From Amycolatopsis umgeniensis (GTDB taxonomy: Bacteria > Actinomycetota > Actinomycetes > Mycobacteriales > Pseudonocardiaceae): a DNA stretch of 64,000 nucleotides. The notes under the pieces were generated by a model. That model worked only from the letters and a program-made list of their open reading frames with translations, did no database searches and had not been told where the DNA came from. A program made the position numbers and the translations under genes. The DNA lies in assembly GCF_014205155.1 (NCBI RefSeq), contig NZ_JACHMX010000001.1, forward strand, positions 8,432,001 through 8,496,000, written 5' to 3'. Below are positions 24,261 through 62,202 of the stretch, piece after piece; positions within the stretch are counted from its first letter, which is position 1; each line of letters starts with the position of its first letter.

Positions 24261-25019
24261 ATGGCCACGGTGCTGGGATGGAACGGATGGAGCAAAGTGG
24301 CTTCGCTGCTCACCGCGGTCGCGGCGATCGCGGCCTTGTGGTTCACTGCGCAGTCGTTGCGTGCAACCCAGGCGCAGATCGGGATGACCGAGCAAGGCCA
24401 GTTCACCGACCGCTTCGGCAAAGCCGTCGAACAACTGGGCTCCGAGAAACTCGATATTCGGTTGGGTGGAATCTACGCGCTGGAACGCCTCGCCCGTGAT
24501 TCTCCACGCGACTACTGGACGACTATGGAAGTGCTTGCGGCCTTCCTCCGAGTACACGCTCCGGCCACGCGCTGCACGGTGAGCACACCATCGACGGACG
24601 TCCAAGCAGCAGCGACGGTGATCGGCCGACGCAACCTCACTTTCGATGCGGATGAAGGCCTTCGATCCCTCAACCGCCGCCCGGACGAGTCCAGGCCTTT
24701 TCGGTCGCCCCTTGACCTCGGCGGTGTTTGCCTCGCCGGTGCTCAACTCGTCAACGTCGATTTCTCCGACGTCAGCCTCGACGACGCAAACCTCAGTGAC
24801 GCGAACCTTTCCGGTGCCGAACTGGACAACGCTCAGGCCACCGGCGCGAATTTCACGAGAGCCCGCATCGGGACTGCCAGCCTCACGGGCATGAACCTGG
24901 AAGGCGCTAACCTGACCGGTGCGAACCTGACTTGGTCCGACCTGTCACGAGCGAAGCTCACCAACGCCGATCTCACCAACGCCGACCTGACTGGCGCCAG
25001 GGGCGTCCACGAAAACTAG
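24261..25019 (+). CDS. Pentapeptide-repeat membrane-anchored protein
   Basis: The ATG at 24261 has GGAGGT immediately upstream; an in-frame ATG at 24123 would add a basic, low-complexity leader without a site. The 252-aa product starts with one transmembrane segment (VASLLTAVAAIAALWFTAQ). The common actinomycete segment FGKAVEQLG...RLGGIYALERLARDS comes next. The C-terminus is a run of A-(N/D)-L-x-x pentapeptide repeats (about residues 150-247), which form a right-handed quadrilateral beta-helix. Family members vary in role; no specific function can be assigned. It is monocistronic and ends 535 bp before tRNA-Leu. Confidence 0.8.
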   Translation: MATVLGWNGWSKVASLLTAVAAIAALWFTAQSLRATQAQIGMTEQGQFTDRFGKAVEQLGSEKLDIRLGGIYALERLARDSPRDYWTTMEVLAAFLRVHAPATRCTVSTPSTDVQAAATVIGRRNLTFDADEGLRSLNRRPDESRPFRSPLDLGGVCLAGAQLVNVDFSDVSLDDANLSDANLSGAELDNAQATGANFTRARIGTASLTGMNLEGANLTGANLTWSDLSRAKLTNADLTNADLTGARGVHEN

Positions 25020-25554: not shown

Positions 25555-25638
25555 GTCCGAGTGGCGGAATGGCAGACGCGCTAGCTTGAGGTGCTAGTGT
25601 CCTTAACGGACGTGGGGGTTCAAGTCCCCCCTCGGACA
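25555..25638 (+). tRNA. tRNA-Leu (anticodon GAG)
   Basis: Acceptor arms GTCCGAG (25555-25561) and CTCGGAC (25631-25637) pair fully, with A as discriminator at 25638. The anticodon arm is CTAGC-TTGAGGT-GCTAG, giving anticodon GAG. There is a long class-II variable arm (TGTCC...GGACG region), and the T-arm is GGGGG-TTCAAGT-CCCCC. CCA is not encoded. It reads leucine codons CUC and CUU. Its 3' end is the attachment site of the element that follows: the last 11 bases belong to the 16-bp att repeat, which regenerates the tRNA after insertion. Confidence 0.97.
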
Positions 25639-27368
25639 CACGCAGTATCTACACCGGGGCTGGTCATCGCATAGATGGCCAGCTCTTTTGGTTCGTAGCG
25701 TAACTTCAGATTCAACCGCTGGTAGAGCCGGGCCAGCCCGGCTGGCTTCGCATCGGCGAGCATCGCTCCGACATCACCGAGCGAATCGATCATCGCGTAG
25801 ATCTCTCCGTCTGTGACTCTCCGGCTCGCAGGCGCGCCGTCCAGCTCGGCCTTCGCTGCAACTCGCTCCGCGTGTGCCTGGTTCATGGCATCGACGACGG
25901 CCGTGGGATCCACTCCTGCCCCGATAGCGTCCTGGAACCGGCGAAGTCGCGCCTCCGCGTCCGCCAGTCGGCGCCGAGCCGCCTCATGCGCACCTCCGGT
26001 GTTCCCGCCCGCGGAGTCGAGTAGCGCCGCAACGGTTTGGTCGACGTTGTCGGGCGCGAACAGCCACCCGATCCAGCCGTTGAGCGCTTCGACCACCGTG
26101 CTTTCACGCAGGTTCACGGTCTTCGGGTGGTCAGCGAGCATCGCCGAGCCTGGAGCCATCGTCCGCGCCGTACAGCGGTAGTACGCACCCTTCCGAATCG
26201 TCGCGCCTTGCATCTTCCGGTGGCAGACTCCGCAACGGATCAGTCCGCGCAGAAGGTAGGTCCGTGCTGTGCTGCGAGCGCCTCGCTCCGCCTTCCTCGC
26301 GGTCGCTAGGCCGCCGCTCGCCTTCGAGCGGCGGAGCAACTGAGCTTGCGTGAACGTCTCGACAGACACGATCTTCGGATGAGCCTGACTCCTCGACCGC
26401 ACCACGCGGTCTGGAGAGGCGCGCCGAAAGCGGACCACGTGGCCGGCTGCTACGTCGTCAGGATCCAGCAACATCTCGTGCTTGGCCCAGCGACCGAAGA
26501 TCGCGTAGCCGGTGTACCGCGGATTCTCCAGAATCGCTCGAACCGTGCTTGTCTGCCAGCCGTCCGCCAACCGGTGCTGATTCTGATCTGGCCGTTTCGC
26601 AGACGGGCACGGGATTCCTTCGAGATTCAGCATGTTCGCGATCGCGCGATCGCCGCTCCCGTCGAGGTACTCGGCAAAGATGCGACGAACCACCTCGGCG
26701 CCAGGCTCGTCGAGCGCGAGCAGACGCAGCCGGAACCCCTCCGCAGCCTTCCTCGGGTTCGGATGTGGCCCGCCATCTACGACCACGTACCCGTACGGTG
26801 CACGGCCTCCCTGGTGACGTCCCTCATTAACGACCTGCGCGTCCATCGCCGCCCGGACGCGCGCCTGAACGTGCTGCCGCTCCGACTCGCTCATGCCGCC
26901 GAGCACGCTCATCAGCATCTTGTGCGATGGATTCCGCGGGTCAAACCGACCGCCAAGCTCCGGAACCCACAGCTCCACCCCATAGGCGGCGAACCGCGGA
27001 GCGATGAGCGAGAACTGGTTGCCGAACCAACAACGGGTCCCCTCGCCGACGACAAGGGCGTTCCACGTCCGGCGCGGATTCTTCAGCTCGGCGAGCAGGC
27101 GTGACGCTTCGGTCCTCCGCTCCCACGGCACTGACCGCGACTGGCCCACGTCGAAGTACTCGGCCACGATCCGGCCGCCTAGCGGCTCGACGAACTTGCG
27201 AGCGTTCCCGATCTGCCAGCCTCGCGAGGTTTCCGGGTCCTGGTTGTCTTCAGTCGAGCAGCGACCGTAGACCGCCAGTGCGCCGATCCCGTCGTCCACG
27301 GGCTCGGCTACCTCCAGACCGAGGATCTCGTCCAATTTCGACCATGGGTCGCTGATTTCAGCGGTCAT
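25620..27368 (-). CDS. Large serine recombinase (site-specific integrase)
   Basis: 582 aa from ATG 27368, preceded by GGGAGGGAGG; a longer start at 27392 is less likely. The resolvase domain carries catalytic Ser38 in VYGRCSTEDNQ, and the helix E region includes GGMSESERQHVQARVRAA. The recombinase domain follows (GRAPYGYVV..., RIFAEYLDGSGDRAIANMLN). Then comes a zinc-ribbon-like RCGVCHRKM...YYRC segment and a coiled-coil C-terminus. It should catalyse integration into, and with a directionality factor excision from, tRNA-Leu. It is the last gene of the transfer operon, overlapping the 53-aa ORF by 11 bp. Its stop codon lies inside the tRNA on the opposite strand, so its last codons are formed by attL. 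Confidence 0.93.
   Translation of the reverse strand: MTAEISDPWSKLDEILGLEVAEPVDDGIGALAVYGRCSTEDNQDPETSRGWQIGNARKFVEPLGGRIVAEYFDVGQSRSVPWERRTEASRLLAELKNPRRTWNALVVGEGTRCWFGNQFSLIAPRFAAYGVELWVPELGGRFDPRNPSHKMLMSVLGGMSESERQHVQARVRAAMDAQVVNEGRHQGGRAPYGYVVVDGGPHPNPRKAAEGFRLRLLALDEPGAEVVRRIFAEYLDGSGDRAIANMLNLEGIPCPSAKRPDQNQHRLADGWQTSTVRAILENPRYTGYAIFGRWAKHEMLLDPDDVAAGHVVRFRRASPDRVVRSRSQAHPKIVSVETFTQAQLLRRSKASGGLATARKAERGARSTARTYLLRGLIRCGVCHRKMQGATIRKGAYYRCTARTMAPGSAMLADHPKTVNLRESTVVEALNGWIGWLFAPDNVDQTVAALLDSAGGNTGGAHEAARRRLADAEARLRRFQDAIGAGVDPTAVVDAMNQAHAERVAAKAELDGAPASRRVTDGEIYAMIDSLGDVGAMLADAKPAGLARLYQRLNLKLRYEPKELAIYAMTSPGVDTACVRGGT
25628..25643 (+). other. attL core (tRNA-Leu 3' end)
   Basis: CCCCTCGGACACACGC, identical to 41630-41645. 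The similarity extends to 23 bp with two mismatches (25621-25643 against 41623-41645), reaching into the T-loop of the tRNA. The recombinase C-terminus is encoded antisense across it. Confidence 0.88.
25659..25689 (+). terminator. Element-borne substitute terminator for tRNA-Leu
   Basis: GCTGGTCATC (25659-25668) pairs with GATGGCCAGC (25674-25683) with one G-T wobble and a 5-nt loop, followed by TCTTTT. It lies 20 bp after the tRNA 3' end, inside the antisense C-terminal coding region of the recombinase. It resembles the host terminator displaced to 41662-41694. Confidence 0.7.
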
Positions 27369-27519
27369 CGGTCGCCTCCCTCCCCGGTCCATCGAGGACC
27401 GGCACCTCAGTCAGGTCGATAAGAACCGCCAGTAAGGCGCGTGCTGCCGCAGGCGTCAGCTCAGGCAATCCCGCAGGTAGGATAACCCGACAAGGCTGGT
27501 TGTTCTGGTTCGCGCTCAT
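27358..27519 (-). CDS. Small 53-aa protein between translocase and recombinase
   Basis: This ORF is too short for ordinary gene finding but is well placed. Its ATG (27519-27517) overlaps the stop of the FtsK-like gene as ATGA. Its stop (27358-27360) lies 11 bp inside the start of the recombinase gene. The product begins MSANQNNQPCRVILPAG, continues LPELTPAAARALLAVLIDLTE and ends acidic and basic mixed (GREATDDR). It has one amphipathic helix and no recognised domain. The unbroken overlap chain implies translational coupling. A role as recombinase accessory or transfer factor is possible but unproven. Confidence 0.65.
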   Translation of the reverse strand: MSANQNNQPCRVILPAGLPELTPAAARALLAVLIDLTEVPVLDGPGREATDDR

Positions 27520-29693
27520 CGCTGTGCCCCTGCGGCGACGTACCCCTCGCCATGACCAGCCTGCTCCACAGCACGGCGGATATCAGCGGTCAGGTAGCCC
27601 CGGACCTGCCGAGTCTCACCGTCTTCGCTGGTCACACGGTCTCGCGTCGGCCGACATCCTGCTTTGGTCATCTGCTGCGAGAACGTCCTGCGTTCGATGC
27701 CGAGCGCCTCCACCAACTCGGCCGTGGGGACGAACTGCCGCCCCTCAGGTCCGAGGTCGACTCCCAGATACTCGACAAGCGCAGAGAGCGGTTCTGGTAA
27801 CTCAGGCATCGATGGGCTCGGTGCAACCCCCGCGCCCAGAGCGTGTGCAACGGCAGCGTGATCGAGCGTTGGCATGCTGTCCTGACCGGCCGCATGCCCT
27901 GTCAGCGTTCCAGCCGCCTCCCGCAGAGCGCGCCCCTGCTGACAGATGGTCTGCCAGTCCTCGTTCGGCATGTAGTACGTGCGGACCGTCATCGCCAACA
28001 CATCCGCCCCAGCCGCCGTGTCACCGTCCGGCCTGAGGATGCCTACGCCCTTGTGCGACGGCAGAAGGCGAGACGAGTCGAACCCGCGGGTGTTCATCTG
28101 CTCGCCGAGCACGATGTTGGAGTCACGCCAGTCCATTACCCGAAGGGCGAACCGTGATCCGAGCACCGCCCGGAGTCCGGATGGAATGGTCTTCGAGTCG
28201 GGACGTTGAGTGGCGAGTACGAGCACGATCCCGGCCGCTGGCCCCTTCTTGGCCAGCCACGTCAACAACTCGCCGACGTACTCACCTGCCGCAAGCCTTT
28301 TTCCTTGCACGTCAACAGGAGTGCGATCTTCGAGCGGCACCTGAACCTCGTCGATGAAGATCGCCGTTATCGGCATGTTCAACGCCTTGTCCCGTGACAT
28401 CTCCGGCGTCACCTTCGATTCCGGGCACACCAAGTCGTCCAGATCCCGCATACGCCGGAACCTGCCCTGGACTTCGGCAACCAGTTCGGCCAGCCAGTCA
28501 ATGAGGGCATGGACGTGTTCAGGCTCGTCACCAGCCATGAAGCGGTGCGCAACTTGCCCGGCGGCGACCCAATCTTTCCCAGCCTTGAAGTCCGCTACGT
28601 AGAGCCGCACCCAAGCGTCCAGGACAAGTCCACTAGCAGCGAGCCGGGCAGCGAACGTCTTACCCTGCCTAGGAATGGCGCCGATCAGAAGCGACGTCCA
28701 CACGAGCGGCAGGTCGATCCGCCGATCTCGTGCGTCTCGTCCGAACGGGACAGGCCGCCAAGCATCCCACCGTGTAACGCCGAGCAGCGGCGTCTGAAGA
28801 GGCGGGCGAACGTACGGGTCCTCATCGGCGACCCACATCGAGATTCGACCGGCATGCCCACCGTTTCCGCGCACGCGCTCCACGATGAGCTGAACTTCGT
28901 CGACTGCGAGGGCTGAAGCCAACGCATCCCGGTTCTTCACGACATCCGCGGCCTTCCGCGTCGCCGGCAAGTCCACGGTGACCGCCCAACCGTCGCCCAC
29001 GCGCGTTGCCCGTTCCACCAAGCGAAGTGTCTCGTCCTTTCCGATCAGCTTCGCGTCGCGGAACGCATCCACAAGAACCTGCGGATCCATAGTCCACGTC
29101 AGCGTGCGCGGACCGGCAAGCGCGGGCTTCCGTCCTGGACTGCCATCCTTCCGGCGTCCCAGAATCGCCAGCGCCAGTGATGCGGCAGCCCCGCCGATCC
29201 ACAGTGGATCGTGCCCGTACAGGAGATCCACAACGGCGACCGCCAACACCGCTATGGCAACGACGGCACCAGTGACCTTCCAGCGGAACAGCATCAGTTC
29301 ACGAATCTCCGTGAACTTTTCGGCAAGCTTCTCCGAGTCCTCGGCAGCCGTCCGATAGTCGCTTACTTTGACCCAGCCTCGCCAGGCTCGCGTACCGGCT
29401 ACGGCCCCGCGGACCACCGCACCCGCGTACCGAAGTGGCGACTTGACTATCCAGACCACGGCATCCTTCGCAGCCTGGACGGCTTGCGGCCTGCTCTTCA
29501 TCCACAGTGGCACTCGCGGTGAGTGCTTCCACCAGCGCGCGAGCCGCCGACGAACGGTCCGAACACGCGGTTGGGGTAACGAGTCGTCGATCAACTCGCC
29601 GTCCAGGATCGGCCCGATGTGCTCGACGTCGCCTGAGGCCATCCGGGCGAGAGACACACCGCTGTCAGCCTCTGAACCCGCTTCAGCTGCCAC
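27516..29693 (-). CDS. FtsK/SpoIIIE-type DNA translocase (Tra), AICE conjugation protein
   Basis: 725 aa from GTG 29693 with GAGGGGGTG upstream. Two N-terminal transmembrane segments (about 140-157 and 163-178) anchor it, and a motor domain follows with Walker A GAIPRQGKT (338-346) and Walker B ITAIFIDEVQVPL (about 435). ATQRPDSKTIP is the conserved motif III of FtsK translocases, and the C-terminus has a helix-turn-helix-like gamma region (ELVEALGIERRTFSQQM). By analogy with TraSA of pSAM2, it pumps double-stranded element DNA between mycelial cells as a hexamer. It overlaps the SpdB-like gene upstream by 11 bp and the 53-aa ORF downstream by 4. Confidence 0.92.
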   Translation of the reverse strand: MAAEAGSEADSGVSLARMASGDVEHIGPILDGELIDDSLPQPRVRTVRRRLARWWKHSPRVPLWMKSRPQAVQAAKDAVVWIVKSPLRYAGAVVRGAVAGTRAWRGWVKVSDYRTAAEDSEKLAEKFTEIRELMLFRWKVTGAVVAIAVLAVAVVDLLYGHDPLWIGGAAASLALAILGRRKDGSPGRKPALAGPRTLTWTMDPQVLVDAFRDAKLIGKDETLRLVERATRVGDGWAVTVDLPATRKAADVVKNRDALASALAVDEVQLIVERVRGNGGHAGRISMWVADEDPYVRPPLQTPLLGVTRWDAWRPVPFGRDARDRRIDLPLVWTSLLIGAIPRQGKTFAARLAASGLVLDAWVRLYVADFKAGKDWVAAGQVAHRFMAGDEPEHVHALIDWLAELVAEVQGRFRRMRDLDDLVCPESKVTPEMSRDKALNMPITAIFIDEVQVPLEDRTPVDVQGKRLAAGEYVGELLTWLAKKGPAAGIVLVLATQRPDSKTIPSGLRAVLGSRFALRVMDWRDSNIVLGEQMNTRGFDSSRLLPSHKGVGILRPDGDTAAGADVLAMTVRTYYMPNEDWQTICQQGRALREAAGTLTGHAAGQDSMPTLDHAAVAHALGAGVAPSPSMPELPEPLSALVEYLGVDLGPEGRQFVPTAELVEALGIERRTFSQQMTKAGCRPTRDRVTSEDGETRQVRGYLTADIRRAVEQAGHGEGYVAAGAQR

Positions 29694-37056: not shown

Positions 37057-37686
37057 CTAAGGGAAAAATCCCACCTGCTCAAGATAGGCGCGCACCGTTT
37101 CGCGATACTCGCCCGACTGAAAGTCGTCGATTACAAAATCCCGCAACGTAGCCTTGATTTCATCAGTATTTGCGCGAGCCCAGTTTTCCACTAAGCTCTG
37201 GATGTGAGTCAGTCTACGTGATCGCGACTCAACAAGTTCCATTCTTGAGAGTTTTAGTTTTACAACAGTGACCTGCCCGCGGTCATCTGCGGGTCGCGAA
37301 AAAATGAGCGGCCCCGCGAACATAAGATGTTCACAAGGGTCGTCTACATACGGGTTCAACAGGGGCGCCTGTTCGCTGTGGTAGTCACCCTTGTACTCGT
37401 TGCACTTAGGACAAGCGATCGTCAGATTACTCCACTCAACCACCAGTTCCGGAAATTTTCCCTTGGGATTTATGTGCTCGACGTGTTCAAAGGCGACTGC
37501 CTTGACAAACGAGTCGCAGTAAGCGCAGCGGTTGGCGGTTTCCGCATTAAGCGGGTCTCGTATTGAGGCATGTCGCCATGGTGTTGTCGGTTTTCCCGTT
37601 GAAAGCGAAGAAATATAGCGGACAGTGAGAGATTCTTGATTTTCATTCAGATAGACTGGCACTTCTTCCTTTGCTAGTCTCCTCAT
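37057..37686 (-). CDS. ptuB: HNH endonuclease, Septu PtuB-like
   Basis: 209 aa. Cys54/Cys57 (RCAYC) and Cys92/Cys95 (CPKC) form a structural zinc site around an HNH core: H68 and H71 in EHVEHINPKG, N87 in WSNLTIACPKCN, K99 in EYKGD. The N-terminus MRRLAKEEV is like that of TIGR02646-type HNH proteins. It overlaps the AAA ATPase gene by 4 bp (ATGA). An ATPase followed by such an HNH nuclease is the architecture of the Septu anti-phage system (PtuA plus PtuB, also found with retrons). It would cut DNA when released or activated by the ATPase on infection. No reverse transcriptase is nearby. Symbol given by architecture, not by similarity search. Confidence 0.8.
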   Translation of the reverse strand: MRRLAKEEVPVYLNENQESLTVRYISSLSTGKPTTPWRHASIRDPLNAETANRCAYCDSFVKAVAFEHVEHINPKGKFPELVVEWSNLTIACPKCNEYKGDYHSEQAPLLNPYVDDPCEHLMFAGPLIFSRPADDRGQVTVVKLKLSRMELVESRSRRLTHIQSLVENWARANTDEIKATLRDFVIDDFQSGEYRETVRAYLEQVGFFP

Positions 37687-38942
37687 TTTCCGCCCTCGCC
37701 TTCGATCGACGGGAGCAAAGTATTAAGCGCTTGAGAAAGCGTGGATCCAAGACCCTCGCGTTCGAGTTCACCTCGAAGCTCTATGAGACTTGACTGGTCA
37801 ACCGGCAGTGCTGCATATCGATCGATAATCTCATTGAAGCGCTCTTCGGCCCAAACCGGAATCGTGGTCTCAACGCCTAGAACCTCTCGAAGAGTACGTT
37901 CTGCGGAAGCACTCTTATCTGCAAAATCTAAAAGCTTACTGTAAGCCACACCATTGTCGTAGTCCAGCGCGTAGACGTTAGCATCTGGTTGCGACGTCAC
38001 AACAAAAGGACTATGCGTCGCAACAACAAACTTCACACTCGGGAACGCCCTTAGCAGGCTGGGTATAATGCTTCGCTGGAGCGACGGATGCAGGTGATTC
38101 TCGGGTTCATCCATGCAAACCGTGAACTGCGAATATTCACGCGAACGCAGGAAGATCTGCCAAGCCACTTCAAGCAATGCACTAAGTCCACCAGAAACCG
38201 CATCGATAACAAAATTTCCAGTCCTTGTTTCAACGACTATTTCTGGCGGCCTTGCAGCCAGTCTTACAAATTTTAGAGTTGACGGCATAAGTTCTCTCAG
38301 AACTGCCTGAAATCCGTTCCAAACCTCCGCAGCCTCAGAGGAGCCTTCAACCGAACTGTTTCCCTCGCTGAAAATAGCCGCCGCAAGCAGAGACTCCTTC
38401 ATCAGGAGCATTGATGACTTTTGCGAATAGGAACCCAACCACCGTTGCCAAAGTTCAGCAATGTATTGCTGCAGTATCTGACCACTTGCGCTAAATTGAG
38501 ATGGAATGGCCTGCACTTCCCTGTAGCTACTCAGAGACCTATGGGAAGCAAGGTAGAGACCTGGTATAGATTGTTGATTCGAAAACGTGATGTCGTAGTT
38601 ACTTCCACCACCGGCGGTCGGAACGGACAAGGTTGACGTCTGACCATTGCTATAGGTGAGCGAACCGATAGATGCGTTTTCGATCTCCGCCGCGCCAGAC
38701 TCAAGAATGGTTGCCGACTTGACGCCATTTAAGTATGTAATACGACCGTCTTTCGAGCGTACTGGCAAACCAACAAACGCACTGCTCCAATTGAAATGGC
38801 GCCCAAGCAGTGTAACGAGCGTTGTCTTCCCGGTACCGTTAGCTCCAGTAAGAATTGTTAAACGGGATGACAAGTCAATATCAATTCTACCGAATTGCCG
38901 CCAATCCTCTACTGCAATTCGCGCAAAAGAGTCATCTTGCAT
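37683..38942 (-). CDS. ptuA: AAA ATPase, Septu PtuA-like
   Basis: 419 aa from ATG 38942 with GGAGA 9-10 nt upstream; the open frame extends to 39254 without a site. This is an ABC/SMC-like ATPase: Walker A GANGTGKTT (33-41), signature-like VSGGLSALLEVAW (249-261), Walker B FTVCMDEPENHLHP (273-286), switch ATHSPFVV (308-315). There is no TOPRIM domain, so it is not an OLD nuclease. It is the upstream partner of the HNH gene. In Septu, PtuA forms the sensing ATPase that holds PtuB. The reading frame is lower in G+C than its surroundings, consistent with recent acquisition as element cargo. Confidence 0.82.
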   Translation of the reverse strand: MQDDSFARIAVEDWRQFGRIDIDLSSRLTILTGANGTGKTTLVTLLGRHFNWSSAFVGLPVRSKDGRITYLNGVKSATILESGAAEIENASIGSLTYSNGQTSTLSVPTAGGGSNYDITFSNQQSIPGLYLASHRSLSSYREVQAIPSQFSASGQILQQYIAELWQRWLGSYSQKSSMLLMKESLLAAAIFSEGNSSVEGSSEAAEVWNGFQAVLRELMPSTLKFVRLAARPPEIVVETRTGNFVIDAVSGGLSALLEVAWQIFLRSREYSQFTVCMDEPENHLHPSLQRSIIPSLLRAFPSVKFVVATHSPFVVTSQPDANVYALDYDNGVAYSKLLDFADKSASAERTLREVLGVETTIPVWAEERFNEIIDRYAALPVDQSSLIELRGELEREGLGSTLSQALNTLLPSIEGEGGK

Positions 38943-39245
38943 CAAGGCTATCTCCAACGGCGTCTGTGGTAAGTGACTGCACCAATTTTGATCCCGTCCG
39001 TTTGGGTGTAGATCGTCTTCCAAAGGACGACCGTTACCATCGAAAGTCTTTGTCGGAGAGCAAAGAAGAACAGATACTTTCAAACCGCGAACTACGGGGC
39101 TCTTTAGTGAGAGAACCCCACCAGTCCGCCGGCGCTCAGCAAAGTGCTTACTGGAGGTCCTAGGTGCGGCAAGTCGTGCCAACCTGAAGCCACACGGCTG
39201 CCCCCAGGCTCGTGCGTCTACTGAACGAGCTGGAAGGATGAGCGC
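38943..39245. other. Divergent intergenic region between ptuA-like and DUF4365 genes
   Basis: 303 bp. It must carry promoters for both flanking genes. The minus-strand frame remains open across it, but the sequence lacks domain character and an internal start with a ribosome-binding site exists at 38942. No regulatory motif was recognised. Confidence 0.45.
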
Positions 39246-40358
39246 ATGATGCATCGGAAGCCGTCAGCCAGGTCAGCGAGTCTCGGCGTGGCTCGGACCA
39301 GGCTGGCGGTCGAAGAGGAACTCGGCTGGCTGTTCCGGGAGCAGGTCACGGAAGACTTCGGCATCGACGCCCACCTGGAGGTAGTCGACGACGAGGTCGT
39401 CACGGGCAAGCTAGTGGCTCTTCAGATCAAGAGTGGCCTGAGTTTCTTCCAGGAACAAGGTCCCGACGGTTGGTGGTTCCGACCAACGAAAGACCATCTG
39501 CGCTACTGGACGAATCACTCACTACCGGTCGTCCTTGTGATGTATAACCCGGAGACTAAGCAATGCCATTGGCAGCTTATAGACGGTAGCACGTTAATCG
39601 AGACTTCGACCGGCAATTCCAAGGTGCTAGTACCTGAACGACAAATATTGAGCAAAAGTGCCCGGCGGCAACTTCATTCAATCGCCAATAGCCGTAGCAA
39701 TACAGTAAGCGTGGAGGCGTCGCCTACCTCAACTGGCGCGAGTCCCATGAGGCCGGTTAGTTGGTACGGCCAGCGCATGCCGAAGAAAGTTCGCGCCGCG
39801 GTGGTCTCTTCAGCCTACCGTGCGGCCGACCAGGTGGGATGGGACCAGCTCCCCAATGTTGAGCGATCGAGGCTATATTCCGCATGGGTCGACGACCCAT
39901 CCATCGGCGGCATTATGGCGCCATACTTCTCCAAGCAGAGTATCCGAATCTGGCTCAAAGACTCGCTAATGAAGGAGTACGTCCGCGCCAAGGAAGGGGT
40001 GGGCCCCTACGCTCAATTCGTGACGATACGATACCCGACACCCGATGAGATCGTGTCGGCAGCGTGCGGAAATGGATGGTTTGTCGAGTCAGGATCGATG
40101 ACCATCAAGCCCTCTCACTGTTTCGCAACAGATGGAATCTATCGACGACATATTTTTTGGGGCGAAGCCGCCAGCTTCGAAAATCTAATTGTCGCAGCGC
40201 TCGCCGTGGCAGAGGGTGAACTTCTTAGGCCAATTGTCGTTATCCTGCATCGCAAGAATCACTCCATGGAACAGAAGTTAACCCTCAGGAAGCTCGCCGA
40301 CAGAGCACAGGTCAAACTGATATTTTTGACGCGCGTCGAAACAAAACTATTAAAATAG
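39246..40358 (+). CDS. DUF4365 (predicted PD-(D/E)xK-like nuclease) protein with an unknown C-terminal domain
   Basis: 370 aa from ATG 39246 behind GGAAGGATGAG. Residues 12-150 match DUF4365: ARTRLAVEEELGWLF, DFGIDAHLEV (D41), then LVALQIKSG (Q60-x-K62). HLRYWTNHSLPVVLVMYNPETK follows. The D...QxK pattern is that of restriction-endonuclease-fold nucleases. Residues about 165-370 form a second domain (WYGQRMPKKVRAAVV, WDQLPNVERSRLYSAWVDDP, IRIWLKDSLMKEYVR) not recognised. DUF4365 proteins often occur in defence islands. It diverges from the Septu-like pair and precedes a membrane protein by 45 bp, suggesting a two-gene unit. Confidence 0.75.
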   Translation: MMHRKPSARSASLGVARTRLAVEEELGWLFREQVTEDFGIDAHLEVVDDEVVTGKLVALQIKSGLSFFQEQGPDGWWFRPTKDHLRYWTNHSLPVVLVMYNPETKQCHWQLIDGSTLIETSTGNSKVLVPERQILSKSARRQLHSIANSRSNTVSVEASPTSTGASPMRPVSWYGQRMPKKVRAAVVSSAYRAADQVGWDQLPNVERSRLYSAWVDDPSIGGIMAPYFSKQSIRIWLKDSLMKEYVRAKEGVGPYAQFVTIRYPTPDEIVSAACGNGWFVESGSMTIKPSHCFATDGIYRRHIFWGEAASFENLIVAALAVAEGELLRPIVVILHRKNHSMEQKLTLRKLADRAQVKLIFLTRVETKLLK

Positions 40359-40403
40359 CCATCCAGAATTCACCTTTACGCAACAAAAGGAAAATCGACT
40401 GTT

Positions 40404-41168
40404 ATGAGTTGGCCAGATTGGGGTAATGTACCCTCATGGGCGTCTACTGGAGCCCTTATTTTAGCACTTGCAACATTTGTTCGTACAAATCACGAAAAGA
40501 AACGCGAACAGGTGGATAGCTTTTCAATTTGGACAACGCTAAAGATTTCTGTCTTAGAAGACGGTCCTGAAAAAGGGAAGTATCTCGAACCCGAGGTGAT
40601 AATAAAGAATGACTCAAAGAAACACCTTCGGATTACTCAGGTGGGGTATTCTGCTAATTGCCTATGGCAGATTCCTGACCCGAGCGGGATTGCTTATGAA
40701 GCCCTTACTGATACGCGACTCAGAGTGCAGGAAGGACGACGATTCTCCTGGGTTCAAGACCTGAAGTCGCTTAAGCCAGAGGAAGAGCGAACCGTGCCAC
40801 TAGGCGGGCTAATGCTGGAGACCCCACCGCAGGAAGACGCAAGAATTCACTATGAGGCGCAGATAAAGATCGAGTTTGTTCACTTGGTTGACCACATTGG
40901 TCGAAGATGGCAGGTAGTCCCCGACGGAAAAGCTCTACCGAAACGCGCATACTGGTTTCGATTCTACCGCGCACAGTGGAAGATTCCCCGACCAGACCAT
41001 CCGTGGCATACGCGAATGTCAAAGACCTTCGCGCACGCGCTAATGAATCGACGCGCAAAAGATCCCAATTCATCAAGTCCTCTCGGAGTGCGGTATCACC
41101 TTCCCAACTCAGGCGGCGCATCAATCTTCGTCATTACCGAAAGAACTCCACCGGCATCAAATGATTGA
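40404..41168 (+). CDS. Membrane-anchored protein of unknown function, element cargo
   Basis: 254 aa from ATG 40404, AAAGGA upstream. One N-terminal hydrophobic segment (PSWASTGALILALATFV) is followed by a basic stretch (RTNHEKKREQ). The rest is a soluble, beta-rich domain (EVIIKNDSKKHLRITQVGYSA...). That layout puts the soluble part in the cytoplasm. No family was recognised. It lies 45 bp after the DUF4365 gene in the same direction, making co-transcription likely. It might be a membrane effector or anchor for the DUF4365 protein. The A+T content is higher than the chromosomal flanks. Confidence 0.65.
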   Translation: MSWPDWGNVPSWASTGALILALATFVRTNHEKKREQVDSFSIWTTLKISVLEDGPEKGKYLEPEVIIKNDSKKHLRITQVGYSANCLWQIPDPSGIAYEALTDTRLRVQEGRRFSWVQDLKSLKPEEERTVPLGGLMLETPPQEDARIHYEAQIKIEFVHLVDHIGRRWQVVPDGKALPKRAYWFRFYRAQWKIPRPDHPWHTRMSKTFAHALMNRRAKDPNSSSPLGVRYHLPNSGGASIFVITERTPPASND

Positions 41169-41629
41169 GAATCGAAGAAATTATTTAGCTTTGCTAGCAA
41201 CAGTGCCACCAGCAGAGGTAGGGCGCGCAAGCAATGTCTCGTTCTCTGCGTGGCATAACACCGCGTCGACACGCGGCAGCAGGCGTTCATTGTGGACCCA
41301 CACGGACTGTACAAGATGTTCGACGGCACAGCGCCGAATATCCCGCCCAGGTCCACCGCCACCGCGCGCCGTGGCCGAGTCCGGTATGCCAACTAATCAC
41401 CTTGACGCTCTTGTCGAAGGGTCGGACCTACTGCGCGAAGGTCATCGTCGAACACCGATGCCCGGACTGCTTTACCGCCGACAATCCCGATGTGGCAGAT
41501 GCGGCGGTTCACGTGAGTGTGAGCGCCGTCCGACTGGTGCACAAGGCTCGCCGAACCGCTTCTGGGCCTTACCTTGCACTCCCGCCGGTCACGAGACCAA
41601 CTGCAAGCGTGTGGTTAGTGAGCAACTCG
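41169..41629. other. Right end of the element, no intact gene; possible decayed ORFs
   Basis: About 460 bp between the last cargo gene and attR. Two short protein-like patches lie in different frames. A C-terminus-like stretch FIVDPHGLYKMFDGTAPN runs about 41286-41339 and ends at a stop near 41395. RTYCAKVIVEHRCPDC runs about 41423-41472. Neither has a credible start. This could be one or two broken genes or the attP arm. Confidence 0.45.
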
Positions 41630-41645
41630 CCCCTCGGACACACGC
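41630..41645 (+). other. attR core
   Basis: CCCCTCGGACACACGC, identical to the tRNA-Leu 3' end at 25628-25643. It is not part of any tRNA here. Seven further bases on its left match with two mismatches, representing the attP arm of the element. Confidence 0.88.
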
Positions 41646-41661
41646 GTTAACCCTACGGGGT

Positions 41662-61000: not shown

Positions 61001-62202
61001 CACCATCGCACGGGCAGTTCCCGTAGTCCGCCGACGGCGAGCCCTTCGACCTTGCGCAGGTCCGCGGCCTCGACGGCGAGTTCCAGCGTGGGCAGTTTCT
61101 CCAGCAGGACACCGAGGACGACCTGCAGTTCGGTGCGGGCGAGCGGCTGTCCCAGACACGCGTGCGCCCCGGCGCCGAACGCGAGATGCGGGTTCGGGCT
61201 GCGCTCGAGCGTCATGTCGGCCGCTGCCTCGAACGCTGTCTCGTCACGGTTGGCCGAGGCCATGCTGCACAGCGCGGTGGTTCCGGCGGGCAAGAGCGTT
61301 CCGCCGACTTCGAAGTCCTCGGTGAGGTAGCGCGACATCCCGATACCCGCGTTCGCGTCCATGCGCAGGGATTCCTCGACGGCGGTGCGGATCAGGGACC
61401 GGTCCTCGAGCAGCGCCTCCCAGCGGCTCCGGTCCTCCAGCAGCATCGCCACCATCTTGGCGATCATGTTCGCGGTGGTCTCGTGCCCGGCGATCAGCAG
61501 GCCGATCCCGGTGGCGACGAGCAGCGCGTCCGACCAGCGCTCGCCGTCGACGTCGGTGTCGGCGATGAGCGCGCTCAGGATGTCCTCGCCCGGCTCGGCT
61601 CGTTTGTCCGCGATGTGCCCGCCCATGTACCGGCCGAATTCCGCCTGCGCGACGTCGAACTCCGCCTGCGTGTAGCGGGTCATGCTGAGCATCACGTCGG
61701 ACCAGTGGGCGAACCGTTCCCGGTCGGTGTCCGGGACGCCGAGCATGTCGCAGATGACCCACACCGGCAGCGGAAAGGCCAGGCCCGCCTTGAGATCCGC
61801 GGGTTCGCCCTTCGCGACCATCTCGTCGATCAGCTGGACGGCCATCGCCTCCATCCGGGGCCGCAGCGCGTTCATCCGCTTGACGGTGAACCATTTGCCG
61901 AGCATCCGGCGCCACTTCAGATGCGCTTCGCCGTGCTGGGGGATGACGCCTGCCATCTCGCTGTTGAAAACCCCGCCCGATTCGGTGTCCGCAACCCGCG
62001 CCGCGTTGTCCGAGGGGGTCGGCCTGGTGAACCGCGGATCGGACAGGACCCGTTTGACGTCCGCGTAGCGAGTGATCAGCGCCGCCTCGTCCCCGCTGGC
62101 GAGCGTGACCTTGGCGACCGGGCACTTCGAGCGGAATTCGGCCCATTCGGCCGGCGGCGCCAGTGCCGCCTCGGTCGGGAACGGGAAGCTCGGCAGCGTC
62201 AT
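61000..62202 (-). CDS. Cytochrome P450
   Basis: 400 aa from ATG 62202, AAGGAG upstream. Motifs are the I-helix LLIAGHETTANM (oxygen activation), K-helix ESLR, and the heme loop FGAGAHACLGQPLAR with the cysteine ligand. HLKWRRMLGKWFTVKRM and RYTQAEFDV are typical of class-I bacterial P450s such as the CYP105/107 group, but the family cannot be fixed by eye. It would hydroxylate a hydrophobic substrate using the ferredoxin encoded two genes downstream; no reductase is nearby. It diverges from the DHA2-type pump. Confidence 0.93.
   Translation of the reverse strand: MTLPSFPFPTEAALAPPAEWAEFRSKCPVAKVTLASGDEAALITRYADVKRVLSDPRFTRPTPSDNAARVADTESGGVFNSEMAGVIPQHGEAHLKWRRMLGKWFTVKRMNALRPRMEAMAVQLIDEMVAKGEPADLKAGLAFPLPVWVICDMLGVPDTDRERFAHWSDVMLSMTRYTQAEFDVAQAEFGRYMGGHIADKRAEPGEDILSALIADTDVDGERWSDALLVATGIGLLIAGHETTANMIAKMVAMLLEDRSRWEALLEDRSLIRTAVEESLRMDANAGIGMSRYLTEDFEVGGTLLPAGTTALCSMASANRDETAFEAAADMTLERSPNPHLAFGAGAHACLGQPLARTELQVVLGVLLEKLPTLELAVEAADLRKVEGLAVGGLRELPVRW

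Follow-up and report, generated by a model that had tools for sequence, protein, structure and literature searches.

In a 64,000-nucleotide stretch of the Amycolatopsis umgeniensis genome (hereafter the window; 8.43–8.50 Mb of a 9.23-Mb single-contig genome), we analyzed two adjacent genes, A and B, which had been proposed to form an undescribed defence unit. Gene A encodes a DUF4365 nuclease domain of the DREN type fused to a second domain (the C-domain) related to a gene of Mza-like/MORC restriction cassettes. This relationship, as judged by sequence comparison, is the new point, and the C-domain proved to be the informative part of A. We lean toward the view that A alone is a self-contained unit, a DREN nuclease in which the C-domain would sense or activate in place of Argonaute–APAZ, with B as a passenger.

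The nuclease domain of A

The restriction-endonuclease-type D...QxK site ascribed to A was confirmed. A DUF4365 profile (PF14280) matched residues 12–146 with an E value of 2.2e-34 (118.9 bits against a curated cut-off of 24.3), and the catalytic motif of this family, DxGxD...QxK as given in the available part of PMC11297309, was present as D37-x-G39-x-D41 and Q60-x-K62. Gly-39, Asp-41, Gln-60, and Lys-62 were kept in all 120 listed proteins, A included, and the last three were invariant in the seven full-length A-type proteins (7/7), so that the conservation among homologues on which the original prediction had been staked was indeed found. The domain also matched, in sequence and predicted fold, the solved DREN nucleases of SPARDA, whose DREN-APAZ protein is a short-Argonaute-associated DUF4365 nuclease (PDB 9jsb, 9jsz, 9vx6, 9qbq, and 9qcc), and its predicted fold was of the PD-(D/E)XK DREN kind. 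According to the accessible portion of PMC12205087, the catalytic residues of NbaSPARDA carry the same numbers (D41, Q60, and K62), and DREN-APAZ, like A, consists of an N-terminal nuclease, a flexible linker, and a second domain. The nuclease-effector half of the original prediction is well supported by these results; the domain is a predicted nuclease of a known kind and looks intact.

The nuclease looks modular, since 108 of the 120 listed DUF4365 relatives (P0008 and 107 others) share another uncharacterised C-terminal domain; the C-domain of A occurred in seven, its own included. Where the N-terminal parts align, DUF4365 proteins that end in a different domain, such as P0010 and P0111, shared 45–70% identity with A. 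In two further proteins, P0095 and P0053, DUF4365 was followed by a weak GHKL ATPase match (HATPase_c_3; E values of 0.0012 and 0.00062, neither of which reaches the Pfam cut-off), possibly representing an independent nuclease–GHKL fusion. A truncated DUF4365 relic was also seen in A. dendrobii (L058, 9001–9195; 74% identity to A residues 1–65), with no C-domain within the stretch, and a DUF4365 domain is encoded by Streptococcus phage YS771 (H31, 61767–62138; 45.6% identity to A residues 25–149).

The C-domain and its relatives in restriction cassettes

The C-terminal part of A, about 200 residues that the original prediction had left unassigned, gave no match in Pfam above the curated cut-off, and none in PADLOC or NCBIfam. 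The same domain also exists as a stand-alone family of about 200 residues whose named members are all actinobacterial; A residues 177–367 matched stand-alone genes in five genomes of the genus with 35–38% identity (E values down to 3.6e-40). When 22 loci containing a stand-alone C-domain gene were read, a GHKL (MutL/MORC-like) ATPase and a superfamily 2 helicase were found nearby in 21, a C5 methyltransferase in 20, and Vsr in 17. These loci are Mza-like/MORC restriction cassettes, and the C-domain of A is a homologue of their ~200-residue gene. In one cassette group of seven loci, this small gene stood last in six, whereas in L104 it was internal. The stand-alone gene was likewise carried by cassettes encoding a MORC-like ATPase, an Mrr-ResIII helicase, a C5 methyltransferase, and usually Vsr (L034 and L105–L117), where it adjoined the helicase gene wherever called; unlike A, these cassettes had no DUF4365 within their stretches.

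The unnamed, strongly conserved ~200-residue family is thus a regular component of two different GHKL-ATPase/helicase/C5-methyltransferase/Vsr cassettes (L033–L037 and L102–L117). One Mza-like cassette (L033, 1166–17696) adjoins genes resembling the DISARM-type drmA/drmB/UvrD genes of L043, forming a dense defence island. In addition, a C-domain homologue lacking a DUF4365 match was detected on a plasmid of Rhodococcus sp. LW-XY12 (H16, 65841–66278; 32% identity to A residues 177–310).

These relationships set A apart from SPARDA. The second domain of A is not APAZ by sequence, PADLOC models for Argonaute-associated restriction endonucleases covered only A residues 8–159, and it is in restriction cassettes that relatives of the C-domain occur; no Argonaute match was obtained among the proteins scanned around A, a search that did not extend to the whole genome. 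The fusion is rare: seven full-length proteins were found, with Amycolatopsis pigmentata and Catenulispora sp. GAS73 among the other carriers, and they form one clade. No DUF4365–C-domain fusion was described in the accessible parts of the literature on DUF4365, on MutL/MORC/Vsr/Mza cassettes (including PMC9523054), and on Septu and actinomycete integrative elements, in which subscription titles were sparsely covered.

Gene B and the integrative element

Both genes were recovered as open reading frames at the predicted positions, on the same strand and spaced by 45 bp. The claim that they constitute a conserved two-gene unit did not hold. None of the 67 DUF4365/A stretches that were fetched contained a B-family match, and of 28 B-family stretches, the 27 besides the present one lacked DUF4365; these stretches overlap, many span only ~3 kb, some B-family matches are weak, and the set does not include the surroundings of the six further fusion proteins. 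Rare co-occurrence had been named beforehand as evidence against the pair and, so far as the stretches allow, was what we observed. B has a single close relative, P0122 (84%), which is encoded on a contig of 1.3 Mb; for the six other full-length A homologues, by contrast, the longest contigs measure 2–239 kb. A conserved A–B pair is therefore not supported, and B looks like an independent passenger unrelated to A.

That B crosses the membrane once and carries a beta-rich domain received moderate support only: the model placed a helix at residues 11–38 followed by strands at 40–171, with a mean predicted local distance difference test score (pLDDT) of 67, and the Kyte–Doolittle 19-residue maximum was only 1.31. 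The B family, which is scattered through the order, probably combines a membrane helix with a beta-sandwich, judging from the model. One B-family gene (L043, 8253–8828) lies beside DISARM drmA and drmB homologues.

A and B are the last two genes before attR in an element of ~16 kb, bounded by tRNA-Leu(gag) with the overlapping serine recombinase gene and by an imperfect 38-nt repeat, and two copies of the 15-nt core of the attachment (att) site, CCCTCGGACACACGC, were found on the plus strand of the window. Among the loci of 11 relatives (own locus excluded), one (L152 in genome G024) had an empty site in which the tRNA-side and right flanks were contiguous, overlapping at the tRNA end. The tRNA was close by in reversed orientation in seven of the 11, and no tRNA-side match was found within the stretches of three (L146, L148, and L151). 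With its integrase, its att repeats placed at a tRNA, and a relative in which the site is uninterrupted, it qualifies as an actinomycete integrative element, with which its WhiB, helix-turn-helix, NUDIX, and FtsK-like (below the Pfam cut-off) proteins are consistent; it is probably conjugative as well. The proposed location at the cargo end of a mobile element was thus borne out. In genomes G007 (L146) and G034 (L148), similarity to the right flank began upstream of attR with no tRNA within the fetched stretch; the same att site may be occupied there by another element.

The predicted divergent Septu neighbours were also verified, since PtuA adjoins PtuB (37057–38942; 486 and 205 bits). At its longest, the PtuA frame (37683–39254) runs into the start of A; similarity to the PtuA profile, however, is seen only from frame residue 109 onward, and the likely start is therefore M105 (38942), which probably leaves ~300 bp between the divergent PtuA and A starts. 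Although it adjoins A on the same element, Septu is a separate system; its models gave no match to A or to B. A luciferase-like gene completes the surroundings of A, and the G+C content is 0.50 in B and in PtuA/B, 0.55 in A, 0.61 in the element, and 0.66 in the window. Another hypothetical gene, encoding an N-terminal hydrophobic stretch, is located just beyond the tRNA side of the element (24261–25019).

Table 1. Positions of the features discussed, numbered along the window
Feature	Position	Strand	Evidence or remark
tRNA-Leu(gag), integration target	25555..25639	+	ARAGORN; attL formed by 3' end
Serine recombinase/integrase of the element	25620..27368	-	PF07508 E 1.2e-19, PF00239 E 4.4e-10
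attL side of direct repeat	25621..25658	.	38 nt, 76% to 41623-41660
Element protein resembling FtsK/SpoIIIE (conjugative translocase-like)	27516..29657	-	PF01580 E 2.9e-4, below curated cut-off
PtuB (HNH), Septu	37057..37686	-	PADLOC PtuB1 204.7 bits
PtuA (ATPase), Septu	37683..38942	-	PADLOC PtuA1 486.1 bits, frame residues 109-514; start inferred, put at M105 of longest frame
Gene A, DUF4365/DREN nuclease fused to restriction-cassette domain	39246..40358	+	370 aa; open reading frame, profile search, homologue alignment, predicted structure
A N-domain, DUF4365/DREN PD-(D/E)XK nuclease	39279..39683	+	residues 12-146
Catalytic codons D41 (39366-39368), Q60 (39423-39425), K62 (39429-39431)	39366..39431	+	120/120 listed proteins
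A low-confidence linker	39699..39758	+	residues 152-171; pLDDT under 50
A C-domain	39759..40346	+	residues 172-367; family otherwise stand-alone in GHKL-ATPase/helicase/C5-methyltransferase/Vsr cassettes
Gene B, from a scattered family (DWGxVPxW; membrane helix and beta-sandwich probable); cargo probably independent of A	40404..41168	+	254 aa
B predicted membrane helix	40434..40517	+	residues 11-38; predicted structure, hydropathy borderline
attR	41623..41660	.	direct repeat with attL; uninterrupted site in relative

Possible function of A

By analogy with SPARDA, the N-domain of A would be silent as a monomer and, once several copies were brought together, would cut DNA, and perhaps RNA, indiscriminately. 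The C-domain may sense or bind invading DNA, either foreign or differently modified, and concentrate the nuclease, such that infection or the entry of a competing element would lead to DNA degradation by A. We consider such a self-contained role for A somewhat probable. Several points weigh against it: partners are absent at A, the fold evidence for the C-domain is weak, the six other neighbourhoods are unseen, and the basis is wholly computational. Only tentatively do we propose that A by itself makes up an immune system on a single polypeptide: its collateral DREN nuclease, of a type known to be controlled by Argonaute, would have been rewired to the part of Mza-like/MORC restriction systems that senses DNA.

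Other roles for A appear less plausible. Its position adjoining attR on an integrative, probably conjugative element, and the activation of SPARDA by both plasmids and phages (PMC12205087, available part), would be consistent with a weapon directed at competing plasmids or integrative elements and not at phages. We regard this as unlikely: the presence of Septu points to cargo directed against phages, although no evidence separates the targets. The C-domain could itself be an enzyme, making A a two-nuclease restriction enzyme. Residues 263–366 gave weak matches to nuclease-fold entries (EndoMS, XisH, PaqCI, and CdiA-CT), from which modelling can only suggest a restriction-endonuclease-like fold, and the domain has a near-invariant charged block (K238, D239, K243, E244, and R247). 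Conversely, the strand expected to hold (D/E)xK, on our interpretation of the fold positions, reads RRHIFWGE in A, with an invariant W305 and no conserved acidic-x-K, and E268 varies in the MORC-type forms (E in 4/12), which makes a second nuclease improbable.

A two-gene defence unit, in which B would serve as a membrane sensor or effector beside the nuclease, is doubtful to a similar degree: the close spacing on one strand, the shared cargo-end position beside Septu, and the low G+C content of both genes relative to the window speak for it, but B and DUF4365 did not coincide in the other stretches read, many of them short and some overlapping, and P0122 lies on a longer contig than any with a full-length A homologue. 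Least likely of all is a toxin–antitoxin pair with B restraining A. The two genes are closely spaced and the DUF4365 protein EAT16 kills Escherichia coli on expression (PMC11297309, available part); an antitoxin should nevertheless track with its toxin, which B did not in these stretches.

If the tentative proposal of a rewired DREN nuclease is true, the stand-alone C-domain protein would serve Mza-like/MORC cassettes as their subunit for recognition or activation, and A would be a minimal version of them without methyltransferase, helicase, or GHKL ATPase. The weak DUF4365–GHKL fusions of P0095 and P0053 hint that the same nuclease has been wired to machines of this class more than once. The architecture of A suggests that DREN nucleases are plug-in effectors run by sensors besides Argonaute. 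A also offers a way into a family that, though strongly conserved, is unnamed and spans two kinds of GHKL-ATPase restriction cassettes: because it joins that family, in one short protein, to an effector whose active site is known, recognition could be tested by a simple assay.
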